Source of the DNA: Prevotella sp.
GTDB taxonomy: Bacteria > Bacteroidota > Bacteroidia > Bacteroidales > Bacteroidaceae
Direction: 5' to 3'
Assembly (NCBI GenBank): GCA_017960525.1
Contig: JAGCZA010000060.1
Span: 1-56,416 of the forward strand
DNA length: 56,416 bases
The notes beneath the pieces are model-generated. The model saw only the letters and a program-made list of their open reading frames with translations. It was not told where the DNA came from and made no database searches. A program made the translations under genes and the position numbers. Shown piece by piece: positions 1 to 12,712 of the stretch. Positions within the stretch are counted from its first letter, which is position 1. Each line of letters starts with the position of its first letter.

Positions 1-300
1 CATGTCCGCCTCGATGCTCACCTCCGACACGTCGCCGTCGAGACAATAGGGGAAGTCGGCCACGAACTCGCCCTCGAAGGCGAAGCCCGTGCAGTAGTCC
101 TTGCCCTCCTCGTCGTTGTGAACCATGTACTTGAAGCAGCCCCGCTCCACGTAGGCCACCCACTGTGCCGGCTCGCCCGCCTCCTCCAGCGTCTCGCCCC
201 GCTCCATCACGCGCCGCTCCCCGTGCTCCATGCAGTACTCCCGCAGGAACTCCAAATCGAGTCCCTCCTTGTAGGTGTTGAATTGCTTGTTTGGTGTCAT
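1..300 (-). CDS. Crp/Fnr-family transcriptional regulator, partial
   Basis: The first 100 codons of a minus-strand gene start with ATG at 300 and run off the left edge. The visible part resembles the N-terminal cyclic-nucleotide-binding-like sensor domain of Crp/Fnr regulators: a short helical lead (MTPNKQFNTYKEGLDLEFLR), then a beta-roll pattern with RGETLEEAGEPAQWVAYVERGCFKYMV followed in pieces by the acidic turn and FAFEGEFVADFPY. The C-terminal winged helix that would bind DNA lies outside the window, so neither ligand nor targets can be given. A TACCTTTG box on the minus strand (330-337) sits about 30 bases upstream of the start. The gene is more GC-rich than the defence operon that diverges from it. 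Family assignment rests on sequence pattern alone. Confidence 0.7.
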   Translation of the reverse strand, partial: MTPNKQFNTYKEGLDLEFLREYCMEHGERRVMERGETLEEAGEPAQWVAYVERGCFKYMVHNDEEGKDYCTGFAFEGEFVADFPYCLDGDVSEVSIEADM

Positions 301-329
301 TGCTGTCACTGCAGTTTGAATTTCGGGTG

Positions 330-337
330 CAAAGGTA
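330..337 (-). promoter_or_regulatory. -7 box of the Crp/Fnr-type gene
   Basis: TACCTTTG on the minus strand matches the Bacteroidota sigma-ABfr -7 consensus TAnnTTTG. I do not see a convincing TTG element at the usual distance. Confidence 0.55.
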
Positions 338-454
338 CAAAAAGTATTCGATAAAATGATATGCCTTATAGTCTTTGAGGCTATAGAGGGATAATAAAGT
401 GCAAAAAAAATAGAAAAACGAACCAAAAAGATTATTTGATTGGAAGAAAATTAC

Positions 455-462
455 TAATTTTG
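455..462 (+). promoter_or_regulatory. -7 box of the Septu-containing operon
   Basis: TAATTTTG matches TAnnTTTG and lies 43 bases before the ptuA start. A TTTG at 435-438 is a possible upstream element but its spacing (about 16) is shorter than the usual 19-21. No other promoter-like box was noticed before the later genes of the five-gene run. Confidence 0.5.
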
Positions 463-505
463 CACTCATAGAGTGAGAATTATAGTTTCATAAATTGTAG
501 AGAAT

Positions 506-1786
506 ATGATACTAACAAAAATTGAGTATAAAGGTTTCAGATGTTTCTCTGACTACAGCCTAGATTTTAGGCGTGGCGTGAATCTATTGATTGGTGATAA
601 TGGCAGTGGTAAGACTTCTGTGATTCGAGGAGTGGTGCTGGCTCTCAATGCTTTTTTCAAGGGGTTCAGTGATGAAAACACTTCGTGTGCAGGTATAGCT
701 TCGGATGACTTTAATCACAGCGTGGCTAACGAATCGAAAAGTCTGACCCGTCCTGTGGAGATTGTATTTACGATAGAAGGAAATGATGAAGAAGTGTCAA
801 TCTTCAGGGAATCGAAGAAAACCTCAACAACATACAAGAATGCAAAGGAGTTTAATGGGCAGAATAAGGAGCTGTATTATCGTGTAGCAGAAGAGGATGG
901 TAACAATCGTAGTACTCCTCTTCCATTGATTGCCTTTTTTGCAACTGATGACATCCATTCCAAAGTAGGTAATGTGAATGGGAAAGCCTTCAAAGACTAC
1001 TACCTTACTCCTTCCTTTGGGTACTATTTCTGCCTTAAGGGGGGATTCCTGGCTAAGCACTGGATTAACAGGATGCTGGTGCTGAAAGAAGGTGGAAAGG
1101 GCGAAGAGGAACTGACCGTAGTGGTGAACGCCTTGAAGAAAGCCTTGGGAGAGAAAGGGTGTGGTATAATCCGCGATGTGGACATCAGGCCTAAGCAGGG
1201 CTATGTGTATTTTATTTTTACAGACGGAAGAGAGGTGCGGTTTGAAGACTTGTCGGATGGTTATCTGAGACTGGTGAACACTGTAATGGACTTGGCTTTC
1301 AGATGTAGTGTCATGAATCGGCCTCTTTATGGCCTGGATACTTGTAATCTGACGGAGGGCGTGGTATGCATGGATGAGATAGACGACCACCTGCATCCTT
1401 CGCTTCAGGCAAGAGTTATCAAGGCTCTACAACATACATTCCCAAGGGTGCAGTTTATTATTTCCACTCATGCCCCGATGGTAATGACAAGTGTGGAGGA
1501 TATAGAGAATAATGTTGTCTACAGGCTTGACTATCAGGAAGGCAACTATCTTGCTGAAGTGGTTAGCACATACGGTCTAGATGCTAGCAGCATTATCCAA
1601 TTTTATCTTCATCAGGCTGATAAGGATATTGACGTACAACGACAGTTGGATGAACTTTTTAAACTGGTGGATGAAGAGAAAATAGAAGAGGCCAAAGCCA
1701 TGTTGACGGAGTTGGAGGCTCATTTCTCAGATCGTCTTCCAGAGATAACAAGAGCAAGAACACTGATGTCGTTTTACGAGGTATAG
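506..1786 (+). CDS. ptuA: Septu-type PtuA ATPase (AAA_21-like)
   Basis: This 426-residue ABC/SMC-like ATPase is the likely sensor or DNA-clamping subunit of a Septu anti-phage system. The sequence shows an N-terminal strand-helix typical of RecF/OLD-type ATPases, a Walker A GDNGSGKT at residues 30-37, a Walker B VVCMDEID near 285-292 and a switch histidine in IISTHAP near 321. The following gene, 2 bases away, encodes a TIGR02646-like HNH protein, which is the defining partner. In characterised Septu systems PtuA and PtuB form a complex whose nuclease is activated on infection; that is family knowledge, not seen here. No reverse transcriptase is present, so this is not the retron-Ec78 arrangement. 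The start was chosen at ATG 506, directly before the conserved first strand. Confidence 0.85.
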   Translation: MILTKIEYKGFRCFSDYSLDFRRGVNLLIGDNGSGKTSVIRGVVLALNAFFKGFSDENTSCAGIASDDFNHSVANESKSLTRPVEIVFTIEGNDEEVSIFRESKKTSTTYKNAKEFNGQNKELYYRVAEEDGNNRSTPLPLIAFFATDDIHSKVGNVNGKAFKDYYLTPSFGYYFCLKGGFLAKHWINRMLVLKEGGKGEEELTVVVNALKKALGEKGCGIIRDVDIRPKQGYVYFIFTDGREVRFEDLSDGYLRLVNTVMDLAFRCSVMNRPLYGLDTCNLTEGVVCMDEIDDHLHPSLQARVIKALQHTFPRVQFIISTHAPMVMTSVEDIENNVVYRLDYQEGNYLAEVVSTYGLDASSIIQFYLHQADKDIDVQRQLDELFKLVDEEKIEEAKAMLTELEAHFSDRLPEITRARTLMSFYEV

Positions 1787-1788
1787 CT

Positions 1789-2463
1789 ATGAGGAAAATT
1801 GACAAGAGGGCAGAGCCTCGTGAATGGAAAGACTATAGAAAGACTCCTGGCGCGCGATACCAGTCGTTTGACTTTCTGGTGGATGCCTTGTTGGATGAGC
1901 AGGGGTATATCTGTGCATATTGTGAGCGAAGGATACCTCATCAAGACGTACAACGGGGAGAGGATCACCGGATAGAACACATAAGCAGTCAGAAAAAAGG
2001 CAGAGAACTGGGTGACGATTCTGACTTGGACTATGAAAATATGGTTATTTGCTGTCCAGGAAACATATCGAACAACAAAAAAGAATATCATTGCGACAAG
2101 GCAAAGGGCAGTAAGGAACTGACCATATCTCCTTTGAATGCCGCCATGATGAGTACCATCCGCTTTACACCCACAGGAAAAATAGCTTCGACTGACGATA
2201 AACTGAATTCGGAATTGGGAAAGGATGGGTTGAACCTGAATAACCAACGATTGGTAAAGCATCGGCAGGAGGCTTGGGCCACTGTAATAGAAAGATTAAA
2301 TGCTCTTGGATGGACTAAGAAGCATGTGGAAGACATCCTTTCAGTATGGGAGGACCGTCATACCGTATTATATAAGGGGTGCGAGTGCAAGGCATATTAT
2401 CCTTTTTGCAGTATGGTATGCTTTATGCTGAGGAAGAAATTGGCTTCGGGAATACTGAAATGA
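1789..2463 (+). CDS. ptuB: Septu-type PtuB HNH endonuclease (TIGR02646-like)
   Basis: This 224-residue predicted nuclease is the effector partner of PtuA. It contains a CxxC knuckle in ICAYCERRIP (about residues 41-50), the HNH strand HRIEHI (about 60-65), the NMVICC segment and a later HCDKAKG, the spaced Cys/His pattern of TIGR02646/PtuB proteins. It starts 2 bases after ptuA and its TGA overlaps the ATG of the next gene (ATGA), so translation is probably coupled both ways. Predicted action is nucleic-acid cleavage during phage infection. The order ptuA-ptuB and both lengths fit known Septu pairs; the downstream coupled genes are the unusual part. Confidence 0.85.
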   Translation: MRKIDKRAEPREWKDYRKTPGARYQSFDFLVDALLDEQGYICAYCERRIPHQDVQRGEDHRIEHISSQKKGRELGDDSDLDYENMVICCPGNISNNKKEYHCDKAKGSKELTISPLNAAMMSTIRFTPTGKIASTDDKLNSELGKDGLNLNNQRLVKHRQEAWATVIERLNALGWTKKHVEDILSVWEDRHTVLYKGCECKAYYPFCSMVCFMLRKKLASGILK

Positions 2464-3164
2464 GATTTATTATAAATGCTATGGATAGATTTAATATTGT
2501 GTTTAACAAAATTACTGTCAATGATGATGGGTTAGACAGTAAGAAATTCTTTTCAAAACTTATAAGTATATCTTATTCCGATAATGACGGAATGGGATTT
2601 ACAGATGTAGATATGGTGGATTCTTTAGTGTCAGCAACATTCCTTAAAAGTATTACGGCCTTCTATCGTATATGGAATGCGGAAACTGGTGAAATGGAGA
2701 AGCAATCATACGAATTGGTGAAGGAAATTAGATTTTATGTGGATTTCGAAAAACACTATTTAGCTGTTGAAGGCAATATTGCGGACATGAATAAATTGAA
2801 AGGCGCTTTCAGAAACTATTTTTGGAAAAGCTTCACTTATGACTCATTGTCTTTGTCCCCATACAATTATCTGGAGATATTTCAAAATGATCATTATTTG
2901 TACAGCATAGACGAAATAACTATTACCGATTTTCCTTATAGTAACATTCTGTTGGGGAAATATGTTGCCAAGATAGTCAACCCTACAACTGATGTGGATG
3001 ACATAAGCGAATATAAGTATAATATTGTAAAAGTGAAAACCCGCTTAAACTTTGAAAACGAAACAATTGCTTTTTCAGCAAGTAGTAATAATTTGCTAAA
3101 TTTGGCGTGTTCTGACAAGGTAAAATACTTGTTTTTCAAATACTTGACCTCAAAACTATATTGA
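2460..3164 (+). CDS. Uncharacterised protein coupled to Septu, 234 residues
   Basis: I do not recognise this protein. The open frame begins upstream inside ptuB, but the ATG at 2460 overlaps the ptuB stop as ATGA and gives a natural start (MRFIINAMDRFNIVFNKI). It is AT-rich, soluble-looking, with no signal peptide, membrane segment or obvious nucleotide-binding motif. Alternating hydrophobic and acidic stretches (VDMVDSLVSATFLKSITAFY, then FYVDFEKHYLAVEG) suggest a mixed alpha/beta fold. It is followed 2 bases later by a nuclease-like gene. Position and coupling suggest an accessory or regulatory subunit of the defence operon, but this is inference from context only. Confidence 0.7.
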   Translation: MRFIINAMDRFNIVFNKITVNDDGLDSKKFFSKLISISYSDNDGMGFTDVDMVDSLVSATFLKSITAFYRIWNAETGEMEKQSYELVKEIRFYVDFEKHYLAVEGNIADMNKLKGAFRNYFWKSFTYDSLSLSPYNYLEIFQNDHYLYSIDEITITDFPYSNILLGKYVAKIVNPTTDVDDISEYKYNIVKVKTRLNFENETIAFSASSNNLLNLACSDKVKYLFFKYLTSKLY

Positions 3165-3166
3165 TT

Positions 3167-4087
3167 ATGGCAGAAAGACAAGGCGTTCAGGGGGCAATCT
3201 GGAATGACAGAGCAGTGAGACTTTTGGAGTTGCTCGGTTGGGATCATATTGGAGATAAGAATATGGACCTAAAAGGGATTGATGAAGAATTTCATGGAAT
3301 TGACGCATTGGCATGTTATGAATCTCCAGGAATCGATTTAAAGCAAAGTTGCTTGGTTGAGTCCAAAAAATATGCAATGGGCAGTTTGAGTGCTACCATA
3401 GTAAAGGGATGGATAGAAACGCTTAAACAAAAGATTGAGGTGTTGAGCCAATCAGAAGATGTACTTACAGAATTCCCTAAACTTCAAGATTGCTGTGATA
3501 TAGATTTAGGTATTATTATGTGCTGGGTTCACGATGTTAGCGATGAGTCATTTTTCGAAAAAGATTTTGAGAAATACCTCAGCAAAGCGGCTATCTTGAC
3601 TCTTGCAAAACCACTCGCATATAGACGAATTGTTGTTTTGACTAATCCTAAAATCATTAGACTATGCTCAATGGCAACCATTCTTCAAGACAATGCTTAT
3701 GATTACAAATTTGTATATCCGTCACAGTTAATAAAGGATAAGCCACTTTCAAGGACAAAAGTGCTTACTATAGAATATGCACTGAGCGACTTTATTTTAG
3801 CCGAACGTGAAAAGAAAGCATCAAAGGGCGAGAAAGAATGTGTGATTTTCTATTTCGGACAAATACGACAAGAGGCATTTATGTCTATGCATGAGGCCTT
3901 GACTATGTTTAATTTTCTTGAGGTTGATAAGAATCTCATTATTTACCACTATGAGGATAGTGATGATTCTAGAATTGTAATGAGTGATCTGGAGAAATAC
4001 TTCTCGAATGTAAAGGTATCGTTTGAACCTATGACACGATTTGAACTGTCCAAAGAACCGGCAATTATAAAGACGAATTCAAAATGA
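3167..4087 (+). CDS. PD-(D/E)XK nuclease-like protein, unrecognised family
   Basis: This 306-residue protein has an N-terminal layout typical of restriction-endonuclease-like folds: a helix (IWNDRAVRLLELLGW, first 25 residues), then an aspartate in GID (D46) and VESKKY (E65, K67), matching D-Xn-ExK. The rest is helical with several strands (GIIMCWVHD, RIVVLTN, CVIFYFGQI) and could hold a second alpha/beta domain. ATG 3167 was preferred over the TTG at 3161 that would overlap the preceding gene. Its TGA overlaps the next ATG. It is probably a nuclease or a degenerate nuclease-like sensor acting with the next protein. I cannot tie it to a named defence family. Confidence 0.7.
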   Translation: MAERQGVQGAIWNDRAVRLLELLGWDHIGDKNMDLKGIDEEFHGIDALACYESPGIDLKQSCLVESKKYAMGSLSATIVKGWIETLKQKIEVLSQSEDVLTEFPKLQDCCDIDLGIIMCWVHDVSDESFFEKDFEKYLSKAAILTLAKPLAYRRIVVLTNPKIIRLCSMATILQDNAYDYKFVYPSQLIKDKPLSRTKVLTIEYALSDFILAEREKKASKGEKECVIFYFGQIRQEAFMSMHEALTMFNFLEVDKNLIIYHYEDSDDSRIVMSDLEKYFSNVKVSFEPMTRFELSKEPAIIKTNSK

Positions 4088-5214
4088 ATAGCAAACAAAA
4101 GATCGTTTATCCATCACCGCGAGATTTGAAAGCCATACTTCTCGATAACGCAAATAGGACGGACATAAAGGCTTTCCTAAGGAGAAAGGGAATCTTCTTC
4201 TTTAATGCAACTCCCGATGATATGATGAGTAGTGTTTCTGAAATCATTTTTGGATATAATGACCTTCAGAAAATCAGGTCGTATGTCTATAGGGCTTCCA
4301 ACAAGCAGATTTTGAGCGGATTTACGCTGACATCAGATAAAATGTTTGACTTGACGAGCATTTACAATAGTGTTAGGAAGAACGGAAAGACCAAAACAGA
4401 CGGTTATGAATTGAAAAGTATTTGTCAAAAGAAAATGGCTTCTGGTGACACTTACTATGAGGGGTCAATGGTATATACCAAGAAAACAGCTGGTCGAATA
4501 GAGTTTCTGCGAACTGAAGAGAGGGATGTTTCATTTATTATGAAGAAGGTAGATGACAGGAATTGGCAGGTTGAGGTTGATGGAAGTCAGTCAGCAGATG
4601 GTAAGAGCGTTATTCAAATGCTGGAAAACATCACGAAAGACCATCAGGTGAAGATAACTTTGTTATTGCTCGACTATTTATCAAGATCGGAGAGTATCAC
4701 TTTCTTTGACAGGTTGTCGCATGAAGGTCTTGGCTCTGAGTGGAAACTGGAGGATATAGGACGTATTACACTCAAAAAACATGCAGGAACCTATGATGAT
4801 AAGGAAGAGGACGCGGATGAAGAAGATGAAGAAGCGTCAGTAGAACAATTATCAGGTATATCTCAGGCCATTTTGGAAGGGAAAAACCTGCGTGAGAACA
4901 AATTCGTGAAGCAGGCAGAAGATTCTGGATATGCATTTACCTCGATGACATATGTGTTTGCTGGTAAGGCCAAGAAGATAAAGTTAAGAGCAGAGTTTAA
5001 AAGGAATCCTAAGATTTTTGAGGTATGTTTAGAGAACTATATGGAACCTGCTATTGGTGAGAAAGAAAAATATGAGGATGCTATGAGTAGCCTTGATGAA
5101 GCAGATAATATTGCTATTCGATCTGTCTTTTGGAATAACGCTAAGAAAGTGTTTAAGTCAATACAAGACGAACGCTTGAAATCTCAAACAATGGTAACTT
5201 CAAGAAAAAAGTAA
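4084..5214 (+). CDS. Uncharacterised last protein of the Septu-linked operon, 376 residues
   Basis: I do not recognise this protein. It begins at ATG 4084, overlapping the stop of the nuclease-like gene (ATGA), so the two are probably made in fixed proportion. The N-terminal 240 residues look globular alpha/beta (KAILLDNANRTDIKAFLRRK at the start). An acidic linker rich in D and E lies at roughly residues 238-252, and a second, more basic domain follows (KAKKIKLRAEFKRNPKIFEV). The acidic linker could mimic DNA or separate two domains. No signal peptide or membrane segment. It is the last gene before a hairpin at about 5219-5262 and the convergent integrase. Confidence 0.7.
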   Translation: MNSKQKIVYPSPRDLKAILLDNANRTDIKAFLRRKGIFFFNATPDDMMSSVSEIIFGYNDLQKIRSYVYRASNKQILSGFTLTSDKMFDLTSIYNSVRKNGKTKTDGYELKSICQKKMASGDTYYEGSMVYTKKTAGRIEFLRTEERDVSFIMKKVDDRNWQVEVDGSQSADGKSVIQMLENITKDHQVKITLLLLDYLSRSESITFFDRLSHEGLGSEWKLEDIGRITLKKHAGTYDDKEEDADEEDEEASVEQLSGISQAILEGKNLRENKFVKQAEDSGYAFTSMTYVFAGKAKKIKLRAEFKRNPKIFEVCLENYMEPAIGEKEKYEDAMSSLDEADNIAIRSVFWNNAKKVFKSIQDERLKSQTMVTSRKK

Positions 5215-5508
5215 AAAAGAAGAGCCCCCCTGTTGTCCGTTATGCGGAACAAACGGGGAGGTTCGCTAAAAAGGGCGATACGTGCATCACCATCTCTATA
5301 ATCTTTTTTAGAACGTGTAGCCGTTCACACTGTTCCTGTCAGAATCGGCGTTGAGGCAGAAGGTGCCGTCGGAGCTCTGGCTACGCCCTGCGGCGCGACT
5401 CCCATAACAATCACATAACCTTCTCTGTAGCCACCACGATGAACATCTCTACGCTCCCCGACCTCTGGTTCGAACTTCGGTACGACATCAATTTCGTTTG
5501 GGCACGGT
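5215..5508. other. Region between operon and integrase with a possible gene remnant
   Basis: Besides the hairpin, a minus-strand frame ends with TAA at 5308-5310 and reads SSDGTFCLNADSDRNSVN then GYTF at its end, which looks like the natural C-terminus of a protein. The frame is closed by stops upstream (near 5451) and has no start codon, so it may be the tail of a gene truncated by insertion of the element. No family could be assigned. I could not find matching direct repeats to define attachment sites. Confidence 0.3.
5219..5262. terminator. Imperfect hairpin between convergent operon and integrase
   Basis: The arms CCCCTGTTGTCCG and CGGAACAAACGGGG pair with one small internal loop around TTATG. 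On the minus strand the stem is followed by a T-rich stretch (complement of 5213-5222), so it fits best as the terminator of the integrase transcript, possibly serving both directions. Confidence 0.45.
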
Positions 5509-6720
5509 TTACAGGTTCTTAAACGATGCGTTGAGCTTATTGCCAAGCATCGTTAGATCGTTGTCAAGTTTCTGACTTGTGATTTTGGCATAAATCTGAG
5601 TGGTCACGATATTCGTATGACCCAATACACGGCTCACACTTTCGATGGGCATGCCCTTTGAAAGCGCCAACGTGGCGAACGAGTGCCGTCCACAGTGGTA
5701 GGAGATGGCTTTCTCAATGCCGCAGGCGGTCATCACCGTTTTCAGTTTCTTGCACATCGACCAGTAGTTCATCTTGCCGAAAACCAGCTTGTCTTCTTGT
5801 AGGTGCTTGTAGCGGTCGATGATCTGCAAGGGTACGTCCATCAGCTTCACTTGGAAGGGAATGTTGGTCTTGTGACGCTTGCTGATTATCCATTTGTCGC
5901 CATTGATGTCCACAATGTTGTCAGTTGTCAGGTTCTTCACGTCAATGAACGAGAGGGCGGTGAAGCACACAAAGACGAAGATGTCACGGACGAAGGCGAG
6001 ATTGGCATCCTCGAACTCGTGCGTTACGACTGTCTTCAACTCTTCTTCGGTTAGGAACTCCCTTTCTTTGCAGTTCGGACTGATGTGGAACTGCGCAAAT
6101 GGGTTACGAGGAATCTTGCCGTTGTAGTGCGCCCTCAGCACGACACCTTTCAACCACATACACCTCTGCCAGATAGTGCCGTTAGCCAGCCCACGGTCTG
6201 TGCTGAGGTAGGCGGCAAAGTCCTTGATGAACTCTGGTGTCAGTTCCAGCATTGACATATCCGTGCGACGATAGTGCGACTGGATGAAGTCTGCCACATC
6301 CTTACGCGAACGCTCCATAGCCCAAAGCGTGCTTGCTGCTCTGTCCTTGCCCACGCGCTTCTTCTGGTTGGCAATATCCTTATCGAAAGCACTCAGCAAA
6401 GTTTCGTACTCGCTGCCAAAACCCTGATAGGAGTTGCGCACCATCTCAGCCGTCACGAAAGCCTCGCGATCCGACAAATGCTGATAATGCTTGATGATCT
6501 GCGCCTTGATGTTGTCCAGTTCGCGATTAATCTGCAATGCCTCCTTGCTACGACCCTTGGCACAATTGCCTTTCACGTCCCACATGTCAAGCGGAATCGT
6601 CTTCTTGCAACTGAACTGGCTCTGGGTTCCGTTAATCGTAACCCTGCCCATCACTGGCACCACACCGTTCTTCTCCTTACTCTTGTTTACATAGAACAGA
6701 ATGTTGAATGTACTTCTCAT
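5509..6720 (-). CDS. Tyrosine recombinase/integrase (Bacteroides type)
   Basis: This 403-residue site-specific recombinase probably mobilised the neighbouring defence genes. It has an N-terminal arm-type domain (STFNILFYVNKSKEKNGVVP), a SAM-like core-binding domain (residues ~110-200) and a C-terminal catalytic domain. Catalytic residues visible: Lys in the SKRHKT hairpin, His and Arg in YHCGRHSFAT near 340, His in VLGHTN, and the nucleophile Tyr in QIYAKIT near 376. At the position of the first catalytic Arg the sequence reads ALSFIDVKNL, with Ser in its place; the conjugative-transposon integrase IntDOT is known to lack this Arg as well. No excisionase, relaxase or conjugation gene lies nearby, so the unit is a small island rather than a conjugative element. 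Confidence 0.9.
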   Translation of the reverse strand: MRSTFNILFYVNKSKEKNGVVPVMGRVTINGTQSQFSCKKTIPLDMWDVKGNCAKGRSKEALQINRELDNIKAQIIKHYQHLSDREAFVTAEMVRNSYQGFGSEYETLLSAFDKDIANQKKRVGKDRAASTLWAMERSRKDVADFIQSHYRRTDMSMLELTPEFIKDFAAYLSTDRGLANGTIWQRCMWLKGVVLRAHYNGKIPRNPFAQFHISPNCKEREFLTEEELKTVVTHEFEDANLAFVRDIFVFVCFTALSFIDVKNLTTDNIVDINGDKWIISKRHKTNIPFQVKLMDVPLQIIDRYKHLQEDKLVFGKMNYWSMCKKLKTVMTACGIEKAISYHCGRHSFATLALSKGMPIESVSRVLGHTNIVTTQIYAKITSQKLDNDLTMLGNKLNASFKNL

Positions 6721-10699: not shown

Positions 10700-10789
10700 A
10701 ATTTAAGTAAAATTGTGATGTAAAAGTTGCACATATCGCTGATTTTTAGCAATTTAGTGTCATCAAACATTAAGTTATGTGATCAGATT

Positions 10790-11695
10790 ATGTGCAACCT
10801 GTATGCAAAGTACGTGAAAATTCTCGAGATATGCAAGCAATTCTCGAAAAATCTTGTAAATGACAAGGGAAATGTTCGTCGCCCTGGTCCTGTTCCCAAA
10901 TTCTCAGATCTGGAGGTGGTCGCTCTAACGCTCGCCGCAGAAACGGAAAGCTTCGACAGCGAGAACTGGCTGTTTGAGCACCAACTGAATGGTTGTCGCG
11001 AAAAGATGCCCAATCTTATCTCCCGTCGTCAGTTCAACGACCGTCGTAAGACAACGAGCGGCTTGTGCGAAGAGATTCGCAAGCGTATAGCTCAGGCCAT
11101 TGATGGAGGTGAAGATTATTACTGTATAGACTCCAAGCCGACAGAAGTCTGTCGCGCTGCACGTGGCAACCGCTGCACGATGGGGCGTACAGGTGATTTT
11201 GCCCTTGCTCCAGACTTTGGCTACTGTGCTTCTCAGGACATCTACTGTTTTGGCTATAAACTCCATGCTCTCTGTGGGTTAAGCGGTGTCATACACTCTT
11301 ATGACCTCTCGAAGGCGAGCGTTCATGACATCAACTATCTGAAGGATGTTAAGCAGGGCTATTGTAACATTAAAATCTTCGGTGATAAAGCCTATATCAG
11401 CAAAGACATCCAGCTTGACTTGTTTGAAACAGCCCATATAGAACTGGAATGTCCCTATAGGGAGAACCAAAAGGATTGGAAACCGACATTCATTCCCTAT
11501 GCCAAGGCAAGGAAGAGGATTGAGACCTTGTTCTCACAGTTGACGGATCAGTTCCTGGTCATCAGAAACTACGCTAAAGAGACGTGCGGCCTGTTTGCCA
11601 GAATCATCGGCAAGATTAGTGCGCTGACCGTATTACAATATGTGAATTACATTAATGGAAAACCCTTAGGCAGGATTAAGTACGCACTAAATTAA
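10790..11695 (+). CDS. IS982-family transposase
   Basis: This 301-residue DDE transposase appears intact. The catalytic acids are visible as D in YYCIDSKPTEV, D in IKIFGDKAYIS and E in RKRIETLFSQL. The N-terminal part (FSDLEVVALTLAAE) is the helix-turn-helix region of the family, and the C-terminal KISALTVLQYVNYINGKPLG is characteristic of IS982 transposases. The frame is open further upstream to a TTG, but ATG 10790 gives the usual N-terminus. The start lies 108 bases inside the left end and the stop close to the right inverted repeat, as is normal for this family. Confidence 0.9.
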   Translation: MCNLYAKYVKILEICKQFSKNLVNDKGNVRRPGPVPKFSDLEVVALTLAAETESFDSENWLFEHQLNGCREKMPNLISRRQFNDRRKTTSGLCEEIRKRIAQAIDGGEDYYCIDSKPTEVCRAARGNRCTMGRTGDFALAPDFGYCASQDIYCFGYKLHALCGLSGVIHSYDLSKASVHDINYLKDVKQGYCNIKIFGDKAYISKDIQLDLFETAHIELECPYRENQKDWKPTFIPYAKARKRIETLFSQLTDQFLVIRNYAKETCGLFARIIGKISALTVLQYVNYINGKPLGRIKYALN

Positions 11696-11884: not shown

Positions 11885-12712
11885 ATGGGTAAAACAGTAA
11901 CAACATATTTGATAGACGGAGATCCGAAAGGAACTCAGTATGTGTTCATCAGCAATAAGATTTGCCAGATGTATGTGATTCCTCGTTCCAACCTTTCCAT
12001 TCTGAATGAGCGACAGGAGTTGCAGACGCCTGCATTTTATATCTTGTTAGGTGAGGATGAGGCTACAAAGCCAAAGGCTTATATTGGAGAAACGGAGAAC
12101 TTTCGTGAACGGGTGAAAGACCACGATAGTAAGAAAGCGTTTTGGCAAAAGGCTCTGCTGTTTATCTCAAAAGATGCTGCAATGACAAAGGCTGATGTGC
12201 AATACTTAGAGCATCGGGCCATTGCAGAGGCAAAGATTTCAAATACATTTGTGCTGAATGAGAACAAGCAATCGCCAAAGGCACCTAATCTTCCTGAGTA
12301 CAGGAAGGATGATATGGAGGGGTTCTTTGAAGATGTGAAGTTCCTCACATCCTTTATTGGTTGTAACATCTTTGATATTGCCAAACCGAAAGAGGAACAC
12401 TTGTTCTATACAAAGGGGCGTGGTTGCGATGCAAAGGGTTTTTATGACACCAATGGCTTCACGGTATTAAAGGGTAGCATCATAGCAAAATCGTCTGTCC
12501 CTTCTTTTACTTGGAAAGAGAAACGTGAGAATCTTCTTAAAGATTATACTGTCAGCAATGGTGACAAGTTGGAATTGGAGTCAGACAAGACATTCCCAAG
12601 TCCCAGCACTGCTGCTGATTTCTGCATTGGTAGCAGTAATAACGGCTGGCTCGTCTGGAAAGACAAAGATGGTCAAACATTGGATGCTGTGTATAGGAAA
12701 CAATTGGAATAA
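11885..12712 (+). CDS. GIY-YIG nuclease-domain protein with C-terminal DUF4357
   Basis: This 275-residue protein has a GIY-YIG-type core at about residues 50-110: FYILLGEDEA as the first motif, then AYIGETENFRERVKDH with the conserved Arg and a later ALLFISKD. The C-terminal part (SPSTAADFCIGSSNNGWLVW) matches DUF4357, which commonly follows GIY-YIG domains in Bacteroidota. The family is predicted to act on nucleic acid; the biological role is not established. It stands between an IS-disrupted gene and a broken AlbA_2 gene in an accessory block. No clear promoter was found directly upstream, so its expression may have depended on the disrupted gene. Confidence 0.85.
   Translation: MGKTVTTYLIDGDPKGTQYVFISNKICQMYVIPRSNLSILNERQELQTPAFYILLGEDEATKPKAYIGETENFRERVKDHDSKKAFWQKALLFISKDAAMTKADVQYLEHRAIAEAKISNTFVLNENKQSPKAPNLPEYRKDDMEGFFEDVKFLTSFIGCNIFDIAKPKEEHLFYTKGRGCDAKGFYDTNGFTVLKGSIIAKSSVPSFTWKEKRENLLKDYTVSNGDKLELESDKTFPSPSTAADFCIGSSNNGWLVWKDKDGQTLDAVYRKQLE

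Follow-up and report, generated by a model that had tools for sequence, protein, structure and literature searches.

The closest described relatives of the locus reported here are 3HP and GAPS4, and it stands beside a third defence system, Septu. 3HP, a set of three genes (Hp1, Hp2 and Hp3), comes from a hotspot of P2-like phages, and its Escherichia coli version protects against phage P1 (PMC9122126); that report gives the proteins 'no clear predicted domain' (PMC9122126), and the DefenseFinder name of the system, Rst_3HP, has its source in Rousset's systems (PMC9090908). GAPS4 includes the proteins GapS4a and GapS4b and may respond to DNA ends, a property given no weight here, and Septu is the pair ptuA-ptuB, of which an E. 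coli representative is reported to cleave tRNA-Tyr (PMC13096335). The stretch of DNA analysed (the window) comprises the 56,416 nucleotides of contig JAGCZA010000060.1 of a Prevotella sp. (GenBank assembly GCA_017960525.1) and carries, directly behind a Septu pair, three genes designated C, D and E. A first-pass annotation made from the sequence had called these genes unrecognised and offered them either as an extension of Septu or as a separate three-gene defence system stacked on it. Judged by sequence, the trio is of a kind already known, 3HP, and is a divergent, order-permuted relative in which D corresponds to Hp1, E to Hp2 and C to Hp3; it is termed a 3HP-like sister clade because its proteins fall in the same PHROG families, yet the PADLOC models match none of the three. 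The locus is read, with a little more belief than doubt for the reading as a whole, as a defence island of two modules (the Septu pair and the C-D-E trio) in one operon-like array, together with a mechanism in which a DNA clamp serves a nuclease.

Genes C (2460..3164, 234 aa, Hp3-like), D (3167..4087, 306 aa, Hp1-like) and E (4084..5214, 376 aa, Hp2-like) lie on the + strand, each with an ATG start. Direct reading of the sequence bore out the earlier gene map: ptuB and C share an ATGA overlap, C and D are separated by 2 bases, and D and E share another ATGA overlap; D46, E65 and K67 stand in D at the places given, and the acidic linker of E reads EEDADEEDEEA. Against PHROG, D matched phrog_7059 (5e-9), E phrog_6531 (3e-8) and C phrog_5850 (1e-5), the families matched by E. 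coli Hp1, Hp2 and Hp3 at 2e-164, 1e-171 and 3e-96, respectively. The same families were matched by all three proteins of a human gut element (L006), and by the Hp1 and Hp3 counterparts, not the Hp2 counterpart, of a haloarchaeal plasmid (L003). The Hp1-Hp3 models of PADLOC 2.0.0 matched none of the three window proteins at E-values up to 10 and none of the three in another Bacteroidales genome (L007); in L003 one of three was matched, by the Hp1 model alone (3e-6). An E. coli plasmid copy (L033) gave full-length matches to PADLOC Hp1, Hp2 and Hp3, it and its relatives occupy, in P2-like elements, the site flanked by the portal gene and the DinI/replication genes, and the labels Rst_3HP__Hp1, Hp2 and Hp3 appear in the record of a Vibrio phage (L047); that the E. 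coli trio of this set is the published 3HP follows from these names and from its position. Among 5426 complete E. coli genomes, megablast detected the E. coli system in 18, and in 17 of these the match spanned 80% or more of the query.

The distribution of the trio was surveyed with hidden Markov models (HMMs) of C, D and E, which were built from 11 loci and run on the open reading frames (ORFs) of loci L001 to L048; clusters were defined by 80% identity of D, and a strong D by a score of 243 bits or more. A tblastn search with D led to L002, a contig from the human gut that is identical as an element to L006 in IMG/VR, and to plasmids of two haloarchaea, Natronorubrum daqingense (L003) and Halobacterium sp. 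DL1 (L004); all three have homologues of C and E beside D in the order of the window. A scan of GTDB with E led to the Bacteroidales genome L007. The haloarchaeal D as query gave plasmids of Pseudomonas nitroreducens (L020) and Azospirillum (L021) with the order D-E-C, and the Pseudomonas D gave 22 plasmid records, of which three were already in the set and six of the other 19 were taken in (L032-L037), and nine IMG/VR contigs. With the E. coli D as query eight phage records were found, four of which were added. C and E adjoin D in 18/18 clusters with a strong D, a count that describes D and E as companions of C and, C not having served as a query, says nothing on solitary C. The order is C-D-E in five clusters (the window included) and D-E-C in 13. 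Because every one of the 18 keeps both the protein sequences and their neighbourhood, the association of the genes is more than chance. Trios occur in Bacteroidota, in plasmids of haloarchaea and proteobacteria, in prophages and in filamentous phages; among the last are two from Pseudomonas aeruginosa, each about 13 kb long (L046, L048), that carry the complete trio. The haloarchaeal E proteins (L003:7001-8302 and L004:6972-8273) have an extra C-terminal helix-hairpin-helix domain, matched by Pfam HHH_5 at 2e-11 in L003 and at 1e-5, slightly below the cut-off, in L004.

A second relationship, to GAPS4, was found by profile comparison. The GapS4a model NF047933 matched residues 9-277 of window D with an E-value of 1.8e-13, at 50.4 bits against a cut-off of 270, and the GapS4b model NF047934 gave no match to window E at E-values up to 1; by the NCBIfam cut-offs applied to the sequences the window pair is therefore outside GAPS4. 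NF047933 also matched all three trio D proteins scanned from L007, L003 and L004, and it did not match the Pseudomonas D; at an E-value of 0.001 it found 6 of 395 genomes of a phylum sample (that of the window included), three of them above the cut-off, and none of 14 control genomes. Profile-profile alignment (hhalign) gave 98.6% for D against GapS4a (E-value 5e-16) and 94.3% for E against GapS4b (1e-7), rising with 11 members to 98.7% and 96.6% (5e-10), and 30 column shuffles of each reached at most 0.5% and 0.2%, respectively; C matched neither the GapS4a nor the GapS4b profile. Since D and E match the profiles of GapS4a and GapS4b and C matches neither, 3HP is, on these alignments, in its parts GAPS4 plus a third protein. 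In the five Bacteroidota GapS4a loci other than the window (L015-L019), a GapS4b-like protein either comes next after GapS4a or is fused with it. NF047934 confirmed GapS4b in all three loci scanned, the scores in L015 and L016 exceeding the cut-off and that in L018 falling short of it, and the call was made by alignment in L017 and by eye in the fused L019.

Two observations concern these GapS4a loci. In three of the five the gene after GapS4b encodes a nucleoid-associated protein of the NA37 (YejK) type (L016:2806-3852, Pfam 7e-36; L017:7062-8132, by resemblance; L019:2569-3597, Pfam 2e-34), perhaps equivalent to the 3HP protein with an RdgC fold described below. In L019 (3594-6281) a single ORF of 895 residues apparently unites GapS4a and GapS4b and has an additional N-terminal region; the QIK motif seen there by eye might reflect a second nuclease domain that substitutes for an altered GapS4a active site.

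The middle protein had been proposed as the likely effector, and its reading as a nuclease is supported. The D...(D/E)xK residues are present in 18/18 clusters, the GapS4a model and profile connect D to that family, and the predicted fold of D is nuclease-like with moderate confidence; the motif, the GapS4a relationship and, less firmly, the fold support D as a putative PD-(D/E)XK nuclease. The catalytic residue at position 65 tracks gene order, being E in 5/5 C-D-E clusters and D in 13/13 D-E-C clusters. For the outer two proteins, the earlier suggestion that they sense or restrain the nuclease can be made more specific, E being GapS4b-like and C having, in a confident structure prediction, the fold of RdgC. 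The resemblance of C is one of structure, as hhalign against RdgC gave 0.6%, close to the shuffle level, and no RdgC model was listed for any C protein in the Pfam scans.

From these assignments a mechanism can be proposed. D would be a DNA nuclease of the PD-(D/E)XK type that forms a complex with E, since the homologous GapS4a and GapS4b belong to one system, and C, sharing its fold with RdgC, a DNA-binding protein that forms rings, may encircle or clamp DNA and so recognise invading or damaged DNA. DNA held by C would then be loaded onto D-E, or would license D-E, for cutting. Recognition or clamping by C, followed by delivery to or licensing of the nuclease complex, is regarded as the most likely course of events. 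The trio would protect this host against phages, and the P1 protection given by E. coli 3HP fits an action on incoming linear DNA, without demonstrating it.

Two other arrangements of the same parts were weighed. The nuclease might also attack host DNA, in the manner of abortive infection, with C restraining D-E until infection removes it. Translational coupling and the constant linkage of the three genes would suit a toxin and its restraint, and for RexA, which belongs to an exclusion system and has the RdgC fold, a conformational change upon binding DNA has been proposed (PMC11077077); C is, however, the last gene in 13/18 clusters, probably an uncommon position for an antitoxin, and the fold predicted for it belongs to a DNA-binding ring, so that restraint by C is regarded as unlikely. 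Rated slightly lower again is the possibility that D-E cuts without any clamp and that C acts separately, for instance by keeping incoming phage DNA from recombining or circularising, much as RdgC restrains RecA. The genome of phage P1 is linear and has to circularise. That 3HP protects against P1 (PMC9122126) would agree with such a role, as would the lowering of RecA-catalysed strand exchange by RdgC (PMC11077077) and the lack of C in 6/6 GapS4a loci, but C is present in all 18 3HP-like clusters, a constancy that points to a required component. Clamping by C in the service of D-E remains the preferred account.

The relation of the trio to Septu was examined around the other clusters. The window genes ptuA (506..1786, + strand, 426 aa; PADLOC PtuA, E-value 1e-144; Pfam AAA_21, 3e-24; Walker A motif GDNGSGKT by eye) and ptuB (1789..2463, + strand, 224 aa; PADLOC PtuB, 3e-59; TIGR02646, 9e-14, slightly below its cut-off), an ATPase and an HNH nuclease, form by PADLOC an adjacent, typical Septu pair. 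A phmmer search at E-values up to 1 found homologues of the window PtuA or PtuB at 0/17 other trio clusters, within flanks of 0.15-8.3 kb to the left and 0.17-7.9 kb to the right that are short in L007 and L048 (171 and 240 bases right) and in L002 and L046 (150 and 484 bases left). C, D and E were on this count rejected as regular parts of Septu. The search is insensitive to distant Septu types and missed one such pair, and possibly others: on an Aliarcobacter plasmid (L032:1628-4415) a Septu-related ATPase-HNH pair adjoins the trio, divergently and on the opposite strand, and corresponds to PADLOC PDC-M01A/B, its ATPase matching the PtuA model at 2e-39.

The Aliarcobacter arrangement speaks against a fully separate trio. 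With the ptuB/C ATGA overlap and the single promoter-like site upstream of ptuA, it would favour the trio as an accessory to Septu, the five proteins forming one extended system with a second nuclease arm. That reading is considered very improbable, as the other 17 clusters are without window PtuA or PtuB homologues in the flanks searched, the two modules are unlike in base composition, and the cloned E. coli trio, identified by name, is protective without Septu (PMC9122126). Of the two possibilities raised in the first-pass annotation the extended Septu variant thus falls away, and a self-standing C-D-E system stacked on Septu is supported by the sequence survey because the flanks searched at the other 17 clusters lack such homologues. 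The preceding Septu pair is most readily taken as independent of the trio, its neighbour, and the two might supply RNA- and DNA-directed layers of defence from a single transcript.

Other features of the locus agree in part with the earlier description, which had placed all five genes between one promoter and a hairpin in AT-rich DNA beside an integrase. The AT-rich setting and the integrase were verified, with GC fractions of 0.319 (C), 0.372 (D), 0.385 (E), 0.436 (ptuA), 0.443 (ptuB), 0.50 (integrase) and 0.518 (whole window) and a 403-aa tyrosine integrase at 5509..6720 on the - strand (Pfam Phage_integrase, 1e-13; Arm-DNA-bind_5; Phage_int_SAM_5); because GC is lower in C-D-E than in ptuAB, the drop suggests that the two modules differ in origin. 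The promoter consensus is TTTG-N14..23-TANNTTTG, with a spacer usually longer than the N16 seen here. Its sole match on the + strand within bases 1-5600 is TTTG-N16-TAATTTTG at 435..462, upstream of ptuA, a promoter-like site by consensus. The hairpin 3' of gene E (5222..5264, no strand assigned) is stable (-26.9 kcal/mol, z -3.3), but the + strand has no T run, and by eye a T run exists solely on the minus strand, where the A-rich stretch before the hairpin supplies it; the hairpin would for this reason be a poor terminator for the operon and looks more like one for transcripts from the integrase side. Farther along from the integrase are a transposase-like ORF (10727-11695) and an ORF that by eye is GIY-YIG nuclease-like (11885-12712).

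If the reading of the locus holds, two independent defence systems have been united in an operon-like array through a 4-base gene overlap, and the nuclease motif, the GapS4b-like partner and the RdgC-fold clamp give 3HP a testable mechanism, tie it to GAPS4 and widen its range by the Bacteroidota and the haloarchaea, in whose trios (window, L007, L003) PADLOC matches one protein of three at most. A literature search, beyond whose reach lay most subscription papers including that on GAPS4, found no publication linking 3HP to GAPS4, and as far as it went the fold assignment, the bridge between the two systems and the Bacteroidota and haloarchaeal range are new. Tentatively, and with doubt prevailing, 3HP and GAPS4 might be two branches of a DNA-sensing nuclease superfamily with a GapS4a/b-like core, to which 3HP adds a DNA-encircling RdgC-fold sensor and some GAPS4 loci an NA37/YejK-family third gene; if true, bacteria and archaea alike would be using as an immune sensor a DNA clamp whose fold is related to that of the kinetochore proteins CENP-L/Iml3.

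Compared with the known systems, the window shares with 3HP all three components, adjacent and overlapping, the three PHROG families and a setting in mobile elements, but differs in its order (Hp3-Hp1-Hp2 versus Hp1-Hp2-Hp3), in the ExK of its Hp1-like D (versus DxK), in the 18-19% identity of D to six aligned IMG/VR D-E-C relatives, in its place behind ptuAB and in escaping the PADLOC models. With GAPS4 it shares D and E as remote homologues of GapS4a and GapS4b in identical order; C, in contrast, is absent by its HMM from all six GapS4a loci (L015-L019, L038), and GapS4a has SxK in 5/5 examined where the trio has [E/D]xK. Relative to E. coli RdgC, C is about 70 residues shorter, and unlike RdgC and lambda RexA it has a nuclease-like pair for partners. 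Septu is represented in the window by ptuA-ptuB, a typical pair, with C, D and E outside it.

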